From an uncultured Pseudomonadota bacterium (GTDB taxonomy: Bacteria > Pseudomonadota > Gammaproteobacteria > Steroidobacterales > Steroidobacteraceae), in assembly GCA_903884105.1 (NCBI GenBank), contig CAISDJ010000106.1, positions 1 to 64,000 on the forward strand: a stretch of DNA of 64,000 bases, written 5' to 3'. Positions 32,084 to 57,655 of the stretch are shown here, in pieces. Position numbers and translations under genes: made by a program. The notes beneath the pieces are model-generated. The model did not search any database. It was not told the origin of the DNA and saw nothing but the letters and a program-made list of their open reading frames with translations. Positions within the stretch are counted from its first letter, which is position 1. The number at the start of each line of letters is the position of its first letter.

Positions 32084-32110
32084 TCCCCACCGGACAACAG
32101 AGGTTCCCTA

Positions 32111-32692
32111 GTGAAGTTGCAGCCTGCAGATCTCTTTGGCCTTGAGCAGTACGCCAAGGCGCGCAAGGACTTTCGCTCGCGGGTGATTGCCCACAAGAAG
32201 GTCCGTGCCATTCCTGTCGGGCCTCACACGACGTGGTGTTTCGAGGATCGTCTGACCGTGCAGTACCAGGTCCAGGAGATGCTGCGGGTGGAGCGGATCT
32301 TCGAGCCGGAAGGCATCGAGGAGGAGCTGGCTGCCTACAATCCGTTGATTCCGGATGGCAGCAACTGGAAGGCTACCCTGTTGATCGAGTTTCCCGATGC
32401 GGAAGAGCGCCGGCGGGAATTGGCAAGACTCAAGGGAGTTGAAGCCCGCTGTTGGGCGCAAGTGGCAGGGCATGCGCGCGTGTATGCGATAGCCGATGAA
32501 GATCTCGAGCGCGAGAACGAGCACAAGACCTCTGCGGTGCATTTCCTGCGCCTCGAGCTGACACCCGCCATGGTCGCAGACGCCAAGGGCGGTGCGGCGA
32601 TCAGCCTCGGCGTGGATCACGCGCACTATGCTCATGCGGTGGACCCGCTTGCCGCTGCACAGCGAGACGCGTTGGTGAAGGATCTCGATTGA
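32111..32692 (+). CDS. DUF3501 family protein
   Basis: The 193-residue soluble protein begins with GTG and reads KLQPADLFGLEQYAKARKDF, typical of DUF3501, with FEDRLTVQYQVQEMLRVERIF and NPLIPDG further on. The family is nearly always found beside rubrerythrin and the GlpC-like Fe-S protein; its function is unknown. A role in handling haem, metal or reactive oxygen for that pair is inference from gene order only. It lies 27 bp after the Fe-S gene. Confidence 0.82.
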   Translation: MKLQPADLFGLEQYAKARKDFRSRVIAHKKVRAIPVGPHTTWCFEDRLTVQYQVQEMLRVERIFEPEGIEEELAAYNPLIPDGSNWKATLLIEFPDAEERRRELARLKGVEARCWAQVAGHARVYAIADEDLERENEHKTSAVHFLRLELTPAMVADAKGGAAISLGVDHAHYAHAVDPLAAAQRDALVKDLD

Positions 32693-51717: not shown

Positions 51718-52995
51718 ATGCAGTTCACCCGCCTGGCCGACTGGCTTCGCTGGCAGGAGACGCTGCATCCCCAGGCAATTGACCTCAGTCTTGGTCGCGT
51801 TCAGCGTGTGCTGGCGCGACTTGGGGTGACTTCCGGGCGCCATCCCGTCATCGCTGTCGCGGGCACGAACGGCAAGGGGTCCTGCGTTGCGATGCTTGAG
51901 AGCGTGCTGGCTGCTGCGGGATATCGGGTCGGCGCCTTCACCTCGCCGCACCTTGGCCGCTACAACGAACGGATTCGCGTGGGTGGGGTCGAGGCGTCGG
52001 ATGCATCGGTTGTCGCGGCCTTCGAGCGGATCGAGGTTGCCCGGGACGGCGATACCCTGACATTCTTCGAGTTCAACACGCTTGCGGCACTCCTGATCTT
52101 CGACACTGCCGGCATCGACTGTGCGGTTCTCGAAGTCGGGATGGGCGGGAGGCTCGATGCGGTAAATGTTGTCGATGCGGATGTTGCGCTCATCACATCC
52201 ATCGGTCTCGATCACTGCGAATGGCTGGGACAGACAGTCGAGGCGATCGGGCGCGAGAAGGCGGGGATATTCAGGGCAAACCGGCCCGCTTTCTTCGGCA
52301 GCGGAGCCATGCCCGAGTCGATCCAGGCCACGGCCGATGCGTTGGGTGCGCCACTCAAGCGACTGGGCCGTGATTTCAATTTCGATGCGACGCAATCGGA
52401 ATGGACCTGGTCGCAGGGAGCCCTGCGAATCGAAGGATTGCCGCAGCCTGCTCTTGCCGGCCCGATTCAATATGCGAATGCGGCCTCCGTGATTGCCGTC
52501 GTGCGGGCGCTTGATTCGAGGTTGCCGGTGTCACGAACGGCGCTCAACGCGGGCTTGCGGTCAGTCCGCCTGGCCGGCCGATTTGAAGTGCGTTCCGGCG
52601 TTGTGCCGTGGATCTTTGACGTGGCCCACAACCCTGACGCTGCACGTGTCCTTGCCGAAAACCTGGCGCTGGTGCCTGTCCGGGGTCGTACGATCGCCGT
52701 ATGCGGCATTCTGGGTGACAAGGATATCGCGGCCATTGCGGCCGAACTCAAGGGCCACATCGATACCTGGATCCTTGCCGGACTCCCGGGGCCGCGCGCG
52801 TCCAGTGTTCGCGACTTGCAGGCGCGGCTCGAGAAGGTCGGCGTCGCGGTGCAGGACTGTGCACATGACGTAGTTGCCGCCTGTAGCCTCGCGAGAGCGG
52901 CGGCACGGCCGGGTGACCGCATCGTTGTGTTCGGATCATTCCTGACCGTCGGCCCGGCTCGCGAATGGCATGCGAGCCTGTCGGCACCCCTCTGA
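51718..52995 (+). CDS. folC: Dihydrofolate synthase/folylpolyglutamate synthase
   Basis: The 425-residue Mur-ligase-type enzyme adds glutamates to folates. It carries AVAGTNGKGSCVAMLESVL for ATP binding, SPHLGRYNERIRV, VLEVGMGGRLDAVNVVD and the C-terminal WIFDVAHNPDAARVLAE. The length is normal. In pseudomonads it is followed directly by a SPOR-domain gene; here a repeat element of about 325 bp has been placed between them. Confidence 0.95.
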   Translation: MQFTRLADWLRWQETLHPQAIDLSLGRVQRVLARLGVTSGRHPVIAVAGTNGKGSCVAMLESVLAAAGYRVGAFTSPHLGRYNERIRVGGVEASDASVVAAFERIEVARDGDTLTFFEFNTLAALLIFDTAGIDCAVLEVGMGGRLDAVNVVDADVALITSIGLDHCEWLGQTVEAIGREKAGIFRANRPAFFGSGAMPESIQATADALGAPLKRLGRDFNFDATQSEWTWSQGALRIEGLPQPALAGPIQYANAASVIAVVRALDSRLPVSRTALNAGLRSVRLAGRFEVRSGVVPWIFDVAHNPDAARVLAENLALVPVRGRTIAVCGILGDKDIAAIAAELKGHIDTWILAGLPGPRASSVRDLQARLEKVGVAVQDCAHDVVAACSLARAAARPGDRIVVFGSFLTVGPAREWHASLSAPL

Positions 52996-53015
52996 TCGTC
53001 TCGCCCGTTATACTT

Positions 53016-53340
53016 AGGGAATCTCTGCTTGACCTATACGCGCTCGCGACGGCGAGCCCCACGTTGAGTAGGACTTGGGTGCAGGGCGAGGTCGCGATGA
53101 CCGCCGTGTACTCTAGGTACATAAGGGGAGTGCAACGCTGCCATGCACCCAATTCTGAAAGAAGTGGGGATCCCGTCCCGATCAAGGAATAAATAGCCTT
53201 CAATGGGTTGCGCCTCTAATCGCCTGCTGCGTCGTTACGGACCTTGTCAATATTCCCGATATTGCCTGCGGCCCGATGTCTTGCTAGCCAAGCGATTGGA
53301 GACGCAACGCGAGTGCGTATAGGTCAAGCAGAGGTTTCCT
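53016..53340. mobile_element. MITE-like element with 33-bp terminal inverted repeats
   Basis: The ends 53016-53048 and 53308-53340 are inverted copies of each other, with three mismatches in 33 bp by eye (shared core CTCTGCTTGACCTATACGC). Both outer edges carry the dinucleotide TA (53015-53016 and 53340-53341), consistent with a TA target duplication of the IS630/mariner type. The inside contains no convincing gene but several short palindromes. The block begins 20 bp after folC and ends immediately before the SPOR gene, whose ribosome binding site (AGAGG) lies in the right repeat. I see no transposase, so movement would need help in trans. Confidence 0.7.
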
Positions 53341-53341
53341 A

Positions 53342-54034
53342 GTGGATACCCATTTAAAAGAGCGTCTTGTTGGTGCGGCCGTGCTGGTGGCGGTGGCCGT
53401 TATCCTCATCCCGGAGCTGCTGTCTGGCCCCTCCGATCGCAAGGCAGATGCGGCTGGTGGCGATCGCGTTGCCGAAGAGGGCGGAGTCAGGACGTACACG
53501 ATCGATCTTGGGCAGCGGGCGCGCTCCGGTGCGAATGAGGCGGTCCCCACTGAGGTCGTGGCGGCGGCTGTGGAAGAGACGCCAGCGCCGCCGCCAGAAG
53601 TGCCCCCCGAAGCCAGTCTGCTGGTTGCAGTCCCTGCTCCGGAGCAGCAATCAGTTGCCAAGTCGCCGGCCGCAGGGGTTGTCCCGGAGCCACCCCCTGT
53701 CGAGCGGCCTGTGGCGGTCGCCAACGCTCAACAGGCTTCGCCGCCGCCTACCGTGCGGGGGCAGGAAACGCCGGTTACCGCGCGCTCGTCGGGCGTCCAA
53801 AACCAGCCGTGGGTCGTTCAGGTCGGCAGTTTTTCGAAGCAAGCAACGGCCGACAAGTTGAGCCAGGATCTCAAGCGACGTGGGTATGCCAGTTTCGTCG
53901 TGCCTTTCAAGCCTGGCGCACAAACGCTTTACAGAGTCAGGGTCGGGCCGATGCGGGAGCGGGGCGAGGCCGATGCCATCGTGCAAAAGCTCAAGCGTGA
54001 AGGGACGGCGGCGAAGGTCGTCGCAAACGGCTGA
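53342..54034 (+). CDS. dedD: SPOR-domain protein (DedD-like)
   Basis: The 230-residue protein has a short cytoplasmic N-terminus, one transmembrane helix (LVGAAVLVAVAVILIPELL), a Pro/Ala-rich periplasmic linker (about 60-150) and a C-terminal SPOR domain (WVVQVGSFSKQATADKL, TLYRVRVGPMRERGEADAIV) that binds denuded septal peptidoglycan. This is the DedD layout. The GTG start abuts the repeat element; its Shine-Dalgarno appears to be within the element. Confidence 0.85.
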   Translation: MDTHLKERLVGAAVLVAVAVILIPELLSGPSDRKADAAGGDRVAEEGGVRTYTIDLGQRARSGANEAVPTEVVAAAVEETPAPPPEVPPEASLLVAVPAPEQQSVAKSPAAGVVPEPPPVERPVAVANAQQASPPPTVRGQETPVTARSSGVQNQPWVVQVGSFSKQATADKLSQDLKRRGYASFVVPFKPGAQTLYRVRVGPMRERGEADAIVQKLKREGTAAKVVANG

Positions 54035-54186
54035 GTGCCCCCCTGCCCATTGCTTCCCGGAGTCGGGCCTGTTCAGGAATTCCACTAGGCAGGCGATGCC
54101 GCTCCCTTGCGGGTAGGTGTTCGCTTCTCAAGCAGGGCGTTGTTCGCAGAATCGACTCCGGTCGCAGCCGAAGCGACGGACGAGTC

Positions 54187-54195
54187 TGCTAGAAT
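54187..54195 (+). promoter_or_regulatory. Putative extended -10 promoter of cvpA-purF
   Basis: TGCTAGAAT lies 58 bp before the cvpA start codon and is identical to the string upstream of parE. No good -35 hexamer is seen, as expected for an extended -10 promoter. Confidence 0.4.
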
Positions 54196-54252
54196 TCGCG
54201 CGGTCTTGAGTCGAACCCCGATTCCCGCCAGACGTCACAGCAGGACTACCGG

Positions 54253-54762
54253 ATGAATGGTGCTGATTATTTGATTCTCGGCGTCCTCGTCCTGTCGATG
54301 CTGCTGGGCTTCTTTCGCGGATTCCTGCGCGAAGCGATCTCCCTGATCGCATGGCTCGGGGGTACCTGGCTTGCCTGGCGGTACGCCTATCTTGTTGAAC
54401 CGTACCTTGGTGGGGCGCTGGCCCATCACCCTGCAAAGGTCTGGGTGGCCAGGTCCTTGGTGTTGGTCGCTGCCATCCTCGCGGGATGGTTGCTCGCCGC
54501 CCTCCTCGGGTATCTGATCAGGCCAGGTCTCAGTCTCGTAGTCGACCGTCTGCTCGGCATGTTTTTCGGTGTCGTTCGCGGCGCGGTCATCCTGTCGGTA
54601 CTCGTTATCCTGGCCCAGTTGGTCAAGCTTGACGATGTGGACTGGTGGAAGGAGTCCCGCATGATGCCCAAGCTCGTCGACCTCGCCAGCTGGGTTCAGG
54701 CATTTGCGGACGCCGGCAGCGACTATCTCGAATCGTCTCGCGGCGCAGCTACGGGGGCCTGA
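54253..54762 (+). CDS. cvpA: CvpA family membrane protein
   Basis: This 169-residue inner-membrane protein has four hydrophobic helices, starting [27 protein letters not shown]. The family member in E. coli is needed for colicin V export and bile tolerance. The gene is placed just before purF here as in E. coli (5 bp gap), so the two are co-transcribed. Confidence 0.92.
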
Positions 54763-54767
54763 ACTTT

Positions 54768-56279
54768 ATGTGTGGAATCGTCGGCATCGTCGGGTCCGGC
54801 CCCGTCAATCAGCGAATTTACGACGCGCTCACGGTGCTGCAGCACCGAGGTCAGGATGCCGCTGGCATCATGACCTGCCTTGACGGTGAGGTGTTCATGC
54901 GGAAGAACACCGGGCTCGTCAGGGACGCATTCCAGCAGCGGCACATGCTTGCGCTCAAAGGCAATATCGGCATCGGCCACGTGCGATATCCCACGGCCGG
55001 TTACGACAACTCATCCGAGGCACAGCCCTTCTTCGTCAATTCGCCGTACGGAATCGGGCTTGGTCACAACGGCAACTTGACGAATGCCGTGGAGTTGGCC
55101 GAGGTGCTGGTCCGCGAGGACCGCCGGCATCTGAATACCCAGTCCGACTCTGAGGTGCTACTCAACGTCTTTGCGAGTGAATTGTCGCGTGCCGGCACGC
55201 CGCGCGCCTCGGCGGCGGAGATCTTCTCGGCCCTGACTTCCGTCTACAGGCGTTGCCGCGGTGGCTTCGCCGTCGTGACGCTGATTGTTGGCCATGGCCT
55301 GCTCGGTTTCCGGGATCCGCACGGCATCCGGCCGCTGGTCATTGGTCGTCGAGACACGGACCGGGGCCCGGAGTACATGCTGGCCTCGGAAAGCGTTGCG
55401 CTAGACATGGTCGGCTTCACGCTCGTTCGCGACGTGGCTCCGGGCGAGGCAGTGTTCATCGACGAGCAGGGCCGCTTCTATTCGCAGCAATGCGCGCCGA
55501 TGGCTGCCCACACGCCGTGCATATTCGAGTATGTGTACTTCGCCCGTCCGGACTCGATCATCGACAACATTTCCGTGCACAAGGCGCGGTTGCGTATGGG
55601 CGATCTGCTGGCTGAGAAAATCCGGCGCCTGCGTCCTGACCACGACATCGATGTGATCATTCCGATTCCCGACACGAGCAGGACGGCGGCTGTCCAGGTC
55701 GCCCAGCTTCTCGGCATCAAGTATCGCGAGGGCTTCGTCAAGAACCGCTATATCGGCCGGACGTTCATCATGCCGGGCCAGGAACAGCGGGCGAAGTCCG
55801 TGCGCTCCAAGCTGAATCCGATCGACCTCGAATTCCGCGGCAAGAACGTCATGCTCATCGACGACTCCATCGTGCGTGGAACGACTTCGGCGCAGATCAT
55901 CGACCTTGCTCGTGAAGCGGGGGCGCGCAAGGTGTATTTCGCTTCCGCTGCCCCGCCGGTCCGCTATCCCAACGTGTACGGCATCGATATGCCGGCAGCG
56001 TCGGAACTGGTGGCAGCGGGACGCACGGAGGAAGAAGTGGCGCGCCAGATCGGTGCCGACTGGCTGGTGTACCAGGACATCGAAGACCTTGTTCATGCCT
56101 GCCTGCACCATGACTCCGAGATCAAGACCTTCGATACTTCCTGCTTCTCGGGCGAGTACGTGACCGGCGATGTCACGACCGAATACCTTGCGCGCCTGCA
56201 GGAGCAGCGCTCGGATCAGGCCAAGGCGCAGCGGAAGCACACCCGCAAAGGGTCGCTCAAGGCCGTACGCGCCGTCTGA
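54768..56279 (+). CDS. purF: Amidophosphoribosyltransferase
   Basis: The 503-residue enzyme starts purine synthesis by making phosphoribosylamine from PRPP and glutamine. Cys2 ([10 protein letters not shown]) becomes the N-terminal nucleophile, which fixes the start at 54768. The PRPP loop [14 protein letters not shown] and the glutaminase motifs [11 protein letters not shown] and [11 protein letters not shown] are intact. The C-terminal tail is Lys/Arg-rich. Confidence 0.96.
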
Positions 56280-56314
56280 ATTCCCCGAGGGAACTCCTGC
56301 ACAGGTTTCGCGAC

Positions 56315-56393
56315 CGCGTTGCGTCTCCAATCTTCTGCTGCGAGGCATCGGCCCGCAGGCGATAGCGGGAATATTGACAAGGTCCGTAACGAC
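56315..56393 (-). repeat. Inverted partial copy of the folC-dedD repeat element
   Basis: About 79 bp match the reverse complement of 53231-53311 at roughly 85 percent by eye, including identical blocks at both ends (GCGTTGCGTCTCCAAT and GACAAGGTCCGTAACGAC). The terminal repeats of the full element are not present here. It lies in the gap between purF and the REC-kinase, ending 12 bp before that gene's start. Confidence 0.7.
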
Positions 56394-56404
56394 AGGGGAG
56401 TCGA

Positions 56405-57655
56405 TTGCAGCCGCGCATCCTGACGATCACGGACCATCCGGACTTCGCGAGCCTGCTCGAGCATCACGTCACGACGGTCTGGAGCGACGCTGAGCTTCGG
56501 CCCTACGAGGCCGCGCGCCGAGGAATGTTGCCTGAAGGCTTCACCGCCGCAGGCTATGACGCAGTGTTGCTCGACCACCAGCTCGAAGGCGGCCTGGGAT
56601 TGCGGTGGCTCGGCGACTTGCTGCAGCGCTCGAATTTTCCGCCTGTCCTGTATTTTTCCGCCGCAAGCGATGTTGTGACTGCGGCGCAGGCCCGTGAAGC
56701 CGGTGCCGTGGAGTGCCTGGCTCGGGAGCGCATCGATCACCGCCGCCTGGCCGAGCTTCTCAGGAGCTCGGTGGACGATCGCCGTCGCAAGATGCATTTG
56801 TGGCGGACGAGTCCCGAAGCGGATCTGGCCTATCGCTTCGGGTCGGTCAGGATCCGGGGGCATCGCTTTCTCAAGCAGCTCGCGGCAGGCGGGCACTCAC
56901 AGGTGTTTCTCGCGGAGAGCGAGAAGGCGGGGGAGCTTGTCGTCCTGAAGGTGTTTCGGGAAGTGCCTGACAAGGTGGAGGCACACGGGACCTTCAATCG
57001 CTTCCTGCAGGAGTACGAGCTCGTCTCGCAGATTCGCCATCCGAACGTCGTACGCATCTACGATCTTGGTATCGCCGATGACCACGCCTACATCGCGATG
57101 GAATACTTTCCTGGTGGCGACCTGCGGTCGATGATGCGGGATGCCATGCCCGTTGTGCCGGCGCTGCGCATCGTGGCGCAGATCGTGGGGGCGCTCGAGG
57201 CCATTCATGGCGTAGGGGTGCTTCACCGTGACTTGAAGCCCGGGAACGTGATGTTGCAGGCCGACGGTACCGTTGCCCTGATTGATTTCGGCCTGGCCAA
57301 GGTGCTGGCGCTGGAATCCGAGATGACCGATACCGGCCAGATCTTCGGCACGCCTTACTACATGAGCCCGGAGCAGGGGCACGGCGAAGACGTCGATGCA
57401 CGCAGCGACTTCTATAGCTTGGGGGTGATCCTCTTCGAGATGCTGACGCGCAGGAAGCCATACAATGCGCGCTCCGTCATGGGTGTCATCTACCTGCATC
57501 GCAACGGGCCATTGCCTTCGCTTGGACCTGGGCTCGAAATCTGCGAGCCGCTGTTGCATCGCCTGCTCGCCAAGAAGCGGGAAGACCGCTTCCAGTCTGC
57601 GGCTGAATTCGGTGCGGCCCTCGACGCGCTGATCGTCTCCCAGGCGGGAGCCTGA
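56405..57655 (+). CDS. Response-regulator/Ser-Thr kinase fusion
   Basis: The 416-residue protein joins an N-terminal receiver domain (about 3-120) to a Hanks-type kinase (about 145-410). The receiver retains Asp57 (VLLDHQ) as likely phospho-acceptor and Asp10/Asp13. The kinase has KVFREVPDK for the ATP lysine, HRDLKPGN, IDFGLAK and GTPYYMSPEQG. The TTG at 56405 follows GGGGAG. A fusion of two-component input to a Ser/Thr kinase is uncommon in this phylum. No histidine kinase is adjacent. miaE starts 5 bp downstream. Confidence 0.85.
   Translation: MQPRILTITDHPDFASLLEHHVTTVWSDAELRPYEAARRGMLPEGFTAAGYDAVLLDHQLEGGLGLRWLGDLLQRSNFPPVLYFSAASDVVTAAQAREAGAVECLARERIDHRRLAELLRSSVDDRRRKMHLWRTSPEADLAYRFGSVRIRGHRFLKQLAAGGHSQVFLAESEKAGELVVLKVFREVPDKVEAHGTFNRFLQEYELVSQIRHPNVVRIYDLGIADDHAYIAMEYFPGGDLRSMMRDAMPVVPALRIVAQIVGALEAIHGVGVLHRDLKPGNVMLQADGTVALIDFGLAKVLALESEMTDTGQIFGTPYYMSPEQGHGEDVDARSDFYSLGVILFEMLTRRKPYNARSVMGVIYLHRNGPLPSLGPGLEICEPLLHRLLAKKREDRFQSAAEFGAALDALIVSQAGA

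Follow-up and report, generated by a model that had tools for sequence, protein, structure and literature searches.

An IS5-type miniature element at the folC-dedD junction of a Steroidobacteraceae bacterium, with a core hairpin that looks constrained as RNA

The window, the whole stretch of 64,000 nucleotides (nt) analyzed here, comes from an uncultured gammaproteobacterium of the family Steroidobacteraceae (assembly GCA_903884105.1, contig CAISDJ010000106.1, positions 1 to 64,000, forward strand). Between folC, recognized by FolC-like Mur ligase domains, and dedD, which encodes a SPOR protein, lies a palindromic segment at 53018 to 53338; the neighboring genes also include CvpA (Colicin_V) and PurF-like domains. 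No open reading frame (ORF) of 60 or more amino acids in the ORF list is contained within the segment, and thus no transposase gene. It is a nonautonomous miniature inverted-repeat transposable element (MITE). We describe its copies, its IS5-type ends, the gene starts beside those ends, and a core hairpin that recurs across the class and looks constrained as RNA.

The element, its copies, and its empty sites

An inverted-repeat search found arms at 53015 to 53048 and 53308 to 53341, each of 34 nt, 91% complementary with three mismatches, and 259 nt apart. Comparison with other copies and with IS5-type ends placed the bounds of the element proper at 53018 and 53338, a length of 321 bp. An earlier reading, made by a model from the sequence without database searches (here, the sequence-only reading), had given about 325 bp with 33-bp repeats bearing three mismatches and TA at both edges. 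TA is indeed present, but as the middle of a YTAR tetranucleotide (TTAG or CTAG) and not as a bare TA. The features are as follows, with the basis for each in parentheses.

51718 to 52995, plus strand: folC, the ORF upstream of the insertion (Mur ligase domains PF02875 and PF08245)
53009 to 53014, plus strand: TATACT, possible -10 box of dedD, retained 5' of the insertion (sequence; conservation in relatives)
53014 to 53017, no strand: TTAG, left flanking tetranucleotide, a copy of the YTAR target one base different from the right flank (comparison with other copies)
53018 to 53048, plus strand: left terminal inverted repeat, an IS5-type end beginning GGAATCTCTGCTTGACC (inverted-repeat search, copy alignment)
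53048 to 53178, plus strand: hairpin 1, the conserved core (match to R1, a covariance model, at 84.3 bits, E 1.5e-19; this hairpin is itself among the 13 sequences used to build R1)
53206 to 53308, minus strand: hairpin 2, possibly a diverged second core, inverted (weak R1 match, 17.2 bits, E 0.0056)
53308 to 53338, plus strand: right terminal inverted repeat (inverted-repeat search, copy alignment)
53330 to 53334, plus strand: AGAGG, likely Shine-Dalgarno sequence of dedD (7 nt 5' of the GTG; start spacing in other copies; predicted pairing)
53339 to 53342, no strand: CTAG, right flanking tetranucleotide, its G shared with the first base of the dedD GTG (sequence)
53342 to 54034, plus strand: dedD, SPOR protein, GTG start (PF05036; orthologues with folC upstream)
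56290 to 56392, minus strand: second copy, truncated to a type B end and a portion of hairpin 2, located between purF and a kinase/response-regulator gene (BLAST match, end motif)

The element is multicopy. BLAST matches in the genome that holds the window (3.73 Mb in 144 contigs; here, the own genome) number 27, some of them short fragments, and fall at about 18 distinct sites at E ≤ 1e-3. Among the 59 genomes searched, the own genome included, the family was otherwise found only in one congener, G001, at no fewer than 12 sites; 56 genomes had no match, and the match in G031, 25 bases within a coding region, was not counted as a copy. Several copies lie at contig ends, and thus the copy counts are lower bounds. 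Moreover, a count of the end motif GGGAACCTCTG gave 23 in the own genome, where its reversed control gave 1, and 29 in the congener, where the control gave 0. The element had no match in the plasmid and phage collections.

The folC-dedD junction is free of the element in relatives. A dedD match was found in 59 of 60 family genomes, and 30 loci were examined. Loci with folC before dedD number 31 once L067 (record CAIUGU010000053.1, a metagenome-assembled genome) is added, and the congener is present among them twice, at the same junction (L067 and L070). The gap between the two genes is 346 bp in the window, 33 bp in the congener, and 4 to 81 bp in the other 28 family loci; the sequence-only reading had noted that in pseudomonads folC is directly followed by the SPOR gene. 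The second window copy, of which the sequence-only reading made no mention (BLAST match 56315 to 56414, end motif at 56290), is also without a counterpart at the orthologous congener site, and so the congener has empty sites for both window copies (folC-dedD and 3' of purF). The sequence-only reading, which had called the segment MITE-like and looked to BLASTN for many copies and empty sites in relatives, was right on both counts and on the terminal repeats. The TA duplications that it also sought did not appear, as the flanks are YTAR tetranucleotides instead.

At one junction, trpG-trpD, both species have the element, and its relative orientation is the same in each. The two copies are 97.9% identical (283 of 289 aligned bases, 16 gap columns), and the flanks are 89.1% and 85.3% identical. 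At this one locus, the identity could reflect purifying selection, conversion, or a common recent source. The gatB-hslO junction (L003, L034) also has an element in both congeners, with the interior inverted between them, and was excluded from the conservation comparison for that reason. Finally, we note mini-palindromes of about 20 to 25 bp made of two ends only, often flanked by CTAG (L044, L045, L051, L122), which are perhaps deletion products of larger copies.

IS5-type ends and target site

Which insertion sequence (IS) may have mobilized the element can be judged from its ends and flanks. Relatives of the IS5-family IS5_4 transposase (NCBIfam NF033581) were found in 12 of 98 genomes, the own genome among them and the congener not. 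Paired ends reading GGAANNTCTGA or close to it were recognized at 7 of the 12 IS5_4 loci, and 5 of these 7 had identical YTAR on both flanks. A complete element of this kind stands in a viral contig: it has such ends, is flanked by CTAG on either side, and contains a transposase frame of 322 residues (PF05598 plus PF01609, NCBIfam IS5_4 at 349 bits); among the 38 viral-contig stretches with the 14-base end motif, most are not paired-end elements. The own genome holds a C-terminal piece of an IS5_4 transposase on contig C20 (L204; 61% identity over 132 residues) and an N-terminal piece at the start of contig C15 (L211), with GTTAG followed by the left end GGATTCTCTGAACAAGG. That C15 starts inside a transposase gene is expected of a repeated element that breaks the assembly. 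A PF01609 profile search of the own genome returned one transposase fragment. Given the IS5_4-type ends in relatives and the fragments in the own genome, we conclude that, by its ends and flanks, the MITE is IS5-type, with a YTAR target and a probable 4-bp duplication, and that a helper transposase probably exists or existed in its lineage. The MITE shares with IS5_4 elements the GGAANNTCTGA ends, the YTAR target, and probably the 4-bp duplication; unlike them, it has no transposase gene, and it has terminal repeats of 31 to 34 nt and a structured interior.

Related ends are found more widely. In the order, 25 of 396 genomes contain the motif CTAGGGAACCTCTG, with 59 occurrences altogether, of which 12 lie in the own genome; the control gave 1. 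A second inverted end lies close by in 13 of 30 loci read, which are other small palindromic elements, and is absent from the other 17; no transposase was recognized by eye among the longest ORFs of the 16 loci inspected for one. CTAG stands on both sides of several type-B and mini copies (L010, L011, L014, L051, L122) and not of many type-A copies. We also note that L138 and L141 have a GGGAACCTCTG end with a different interior (GTCATTGCGAGGAACGAAG...), and thus GGGAACCTCTG-type ends serve several interiors.

Gene starts and stops at the element ends

How the insertion may have affected dedD turns on what lies at either end. Of the 29 distinct loci other than the window's, 9 have the sequence TATACT 7 to 8 nt ahead of the start of dedD, judged by eye and with the congener counted once (L067, L070 to L073, L083, L085, L086, L089, and L090), a spacing that suggests the -10 box of a leaderless or nearly leaderless dedD message. 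In the window, the element begins 3 nt after TATACT (53009 to 53014). Such a promoter, if it works, would start the dedD message inside the left repeat and leave the element of about 320 nt as a leader.

At the other end, AGAGG at 53330 to 53334 stands 7 nt before the dedD GTG (53342). The sequence-only reading had proposed that the right repeat supplies the ribosome binding site of dedD, and the arrangement recurs. Among full type-A copies (alignment A1), a start codon lies 1 to 16 nt beyond one end, with CAGAGG at Shine-Dalgarno distance, in 13 of 16 (all except L006, L007, and L008), or in 11 of 14 when one of each orthologous pair is dropped. Over all 77 outward ends in the two congeners, a set that also takes in solo ends and approximate matches (no more than 2 mismatches), the start of an outward gene lies 1 to 16 nt beyond 23, and the stop of an inward-reading gene falls in the flanking tetranucleotide at 15 (14 TAG, 1 TAA); these counts are approximate, as gene direction was assigned automatically and failed or was doubtful for some ends (e.g., L103, L106, and L115). 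In the class at large, 34 elements with 68 flanks were inspected, and at 13 flanks the boundary tetranucleotide contains the TAG or TAA that closes an open frame of at least 110 codons, a count made by eye, with frames not verified as genes and with no null. The right repeat is likely the Shine-Dalgarno sequence of dedD. Folding predicts that AGAGG pairs with the opposite repeat in full transcripts of 13 of 13 start-bearing copies (unpaired probability 0.00) and is free with a probability of 0.20 to 0.72 when the left repeat is absent.

At 32098 to 32111, a solo end, CAGAGGTTCCCTAG, immediately precedes the GTG of a DUF3501 gene (PF12007); no partner end was recognized. It is possibly a relic that still gives a Shine-Dalgarno sequence.

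The core hairpin and its interpretation

The element is strongly structured. Its folding energy is -179, whereas 100 shuffles average -125 (z -9.25), and RNAalifold of 19 aligned copies gave 92 pairs, 25 of them with compensatory changes. In A1, two-sided changes numbered 76 cells against 18.6 in shuffles and 0 to 5 in slid controls. A covariance model of hairpin 1, R1, was built from 13 sequences of the two congeners and found matches in 20 of 200 family genomes, which represent 7 of 25 genera and of which 13 have at least two copies, and in 29 of 274 class genomes, which represent 27 of 222 genera and of which 19 have at least two copies, both counts including the own genome and resting on 20 or 14 scored candidates per genome. 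The core-bearing elements end differently, for example in TAGGGCCTGTTAACACTCAT, TAGGGAGACGCTGATT, or TAAGGAAGCTCTGG; of the 34 with recognizable terminal repeats, 29 are 240 to 302 bp long, within a range of 155 to 343. A second core stands inverted beside the first at 17 of 48 loci searched.

Across the class, the core covaries. In the alignment of 52 cores from 41 loci (A4), from which 19 of 71 matches, those above E 2e-8, were excluded chiefly to remove antisense self-matches, 94.1% of cells pair, and two-sided changes number 504 cells against 142 in shuffles and 69 to 92 in slid controls, in an alignment that favors pairing because it was fitted to the model. Counted by pairs, two-sided change is only a little above shuffles (30 against 25.6, reached by 1 of 500), and the signal lies in the cell counts. 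Rfam gave no match up to E 1 in positions 52900 to 56500, and for seven class loci it gave only one subthreshold microRNA match (E 0.45).

Whether the structure is kept at the level of RNA or of DNA can be asked of its wobble pairs. A G-U on one strand is an A-C mismatch on the other, and thus DNA-level upkeep, by arm-to-arm correction of the palindrome or because cruciforms serve transposition, predicts equal numbers of both. The terminal repeats behave in this way, with G-U to A-C ratios of 17:22 in 34 class-wide elements oriented by their core and 9:8 in A1; moreover, the two-sided changes of A1 far exceed one-sided wobble steps, as if one arm had been copied from the other. The core does not: the 52 cores contain 79 G-U and 8 A-C (Fisher p 4e-8 against the terminal repeats of the class-wide elements), the ratio is 22:2 in the 22 rows without gap differences, where the alignment has no freedom, 33:3 in the 31 best rows, and 51:5 in the outer arms alone, and 13 inverted second cores are biased on their own strand at 17:2. 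These ratios carry the caveats that R1 prefers G-U over A-C in choosing matches, that the structure was predicted on the core strand, and that rows are not independent; the A4 count omits one model pair that is a non-pair in most rows (46 of 52). The hairpin wobble of A1 (24:3, 42:3) was excluded, as the strand counted is also the one on which the structure was predicted, and most of the count comes from a few invariant G-U columns. From the asymmetry of the core and the unbiased terminal repeats, constraint at the RNA level seems to act on the core but not on the ends, and we consider it unlikely that DNA-level processes alone maintain a core devoid of RNA function.

The element might instead be a neutral passenger, its insertions near starts and stops being the survivors in a gene-dense genome and its Shine-Dalgarno-like end a by-product of the sequence that the transposase binds. 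The window is 89% coding by the gene model, its 28 CTAG sites are rare inside genes (8 within genes, 6 stops, 14 intergenic), and CCTCTG belongs to the IS end as such. Starts are nevertheless closer to the ends than available sites would give: they lie within 16 nt at 11 of 98 ends of YTAR sites in the window, hence at no more than 11 of the 49 nondisruptive sites, against the 11 of 14 type-A elements (Fisher p 2e-4 per element, 0.003 per end). The trpG-trpD copy is also more alike between species than its flanks, at a single locus where conversion is possible. On balance, the passenger explanation is a real possibility, though one that we judge somewhat more apt to be wrong than right. An IS630/Tc1-type element with a TA target, the origin suggested by the sequence-only reading, would account for the TA at both edges and is very improbable, as that TA is the middle of YTAR, the ends are those of IS5_4, 5 of 7 end pairs in relatives have the same YTAR on both flanks, and the viral contig has CTAG on both sides; this origin was rejected on ends and target, and no search was aimed at IS630 transposases. 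A fixed dedD leader or riboswitch with chance inverted repeats would fit the strong fold and the conserved core. It was rejected as barely conceivable, since copies stand at many unrelated sites and, by gap length, the segment is absent at dedD of the congener and of 28 family loci. The sequence-only reading had itself set against mobility a single-copy segment conserved in place, or a conserved RNA family without transposon-like ends. The first is contradicted by the many sites and the empty congener junction; of the second, a conserved RNA core does exist, but with transposon ends.

The reading that we prefer, and regard as probable, is that of an IS5-type MITE inserted between folC and dedD, with a donated Shine-Dalgarno sequence and a core that acts at the RNA level. 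A YTAR-specific transposase of the IS5_4 kind, acting in trans, would have inserted the element into the junction between the TATACT box and the dedD start, most likely after the split from the sequenced congener. The outward end, with CAGAGG 7 nt before the GTG, would now serve dedD as its Shine-Dalgarno sequence. Transcripts started upstream would include the entire element, about 320 nt of structured RNA, with that sequence paired to the left repeat, and dedD would be translated from those transcripts that lack the left repeat, have lost it by cleavage, or keep it open. As the CTAG target is often a stop codon and the end carries a Shine-Dalgarno sequence, we infer that the element may be tolerated at operon junctions with stop and start still working. 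The core hairpin would be an RNA-level module. The mechanism that we rank likeliest, although we would not expect it to be right, is that it prevents polarity of the untranslated insert through RNA processing or by offering no unstructured landing site for Rho. More broadly, and only tentatively, a single RNA module may be carried across the class by MITEs whose transposon ends have been exchanged several times, and may make insertion at operon junctions harmless in cis by antipolarity or processing, with CTAG giving the stop and the GGAACCTCTG-ended branch the Shine-Dalgarno sequence. On this view the element amounts to a portable operon junction that brings along an uncharacterized RNA family, and a module often present twice, inverted, would place a sense copy in the transcript whichever way the element landed.

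Several points weigh against this reading. The flanks TTAG and CTAG differ by one base and those of many type-A copies by more, and the duplication is therefore not clean. The own-genome assembly contains no intact helper transposase, and a search of the congener, whose genome is 77% complete, found none. The empty site comes from a single congener whose dedD is 72% identical. Hairpin 2 of the window matches R1 weakly, at 17.2 bits, against 16.3 for antisense hairpin 1 and 14.6 for a place in purF. Gene starts were called with a simple codon model, and the window's own element sites are part of the yardstick for starts. Occlusion of the Shine-Dalgarno sequence predicts poor translation of dedD from read-through, which is odd for an arrangement that has been retained. 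Finally, a consensus promoter scan of 52900 to 53420 found none, and neither did a terminator scan, and thus the case for TATACT activity is its conservation.

How the element relates to known families can be stated in part. ERIC elements are about 127 bp long and target TA. ERIC, or IRU, of enterobacteria is palindromic, is cotranscribed with its neighbors, and acts on mRNA stability (cited part of PMC2229807); it differs from the present MITE in sequence and size, and the search against Rfam, the comparison made, gave no match and thus no sign of a sequence relation. NEMIS, or Correia, elements of Neisseria are MITEs whose transcript stem is a substrate of RNase III and which can affect adjacent genes (cited parts of PMC2229807 and PMC2649163). 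They have other ends and, in those accounts, promoters and an IHF site, whereas the consensus scan found no promoter here. QMITE1 and QMITE2 of Coxiella are long-stem MITEs with very stable predicted RNA, some giving rise to small RNAs, and one QMITE supplies the C terminus and stop of a gene; QMITE1 is given there as having no orthologues in other genomes (cited part of PMC5896051), in contrast to the core described here, which occurs in many genera. MITEAba12 of Moraxellaceae is IS derived, has terminal inverted repeats, and can give the first codons to a neighboring gene. Unlike the present MITE, it is 113 bp long with outward promoters, and the cited part of PMC6382973 describes no donation of a Shine-Dalgarno sequence. 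The Chunjie MITE of Geobacter left an operon intact, as mentioned in the cited part of PMC10969869. Among the papers listed by literature searches, nothing on the present family was found, most subscription papers being out of reach, and we do not claim its absence from print. Thus, that MITEs affect mRNA is already known from ERIC and NEMIS; what looks new is an IS5-type MITE with a core that recurs behind different ends and bears signs of constraint as RNA.

MITEs are usually viewed as passive remnants of ISs. Here, the interior too recurs across many genera, covaries, and has wobble specific to one strand, all of which suggests an RNA on which the element depends. Should this hold, the core would be an RNA family absent from Rfam and would offer a reason why short palindromic elements survive in operons. 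At dedD, a promoter very close to the start codon would, through the insertion, now give a message with a long, structured leader, whose ribosome-binding site is borrowed from the element.
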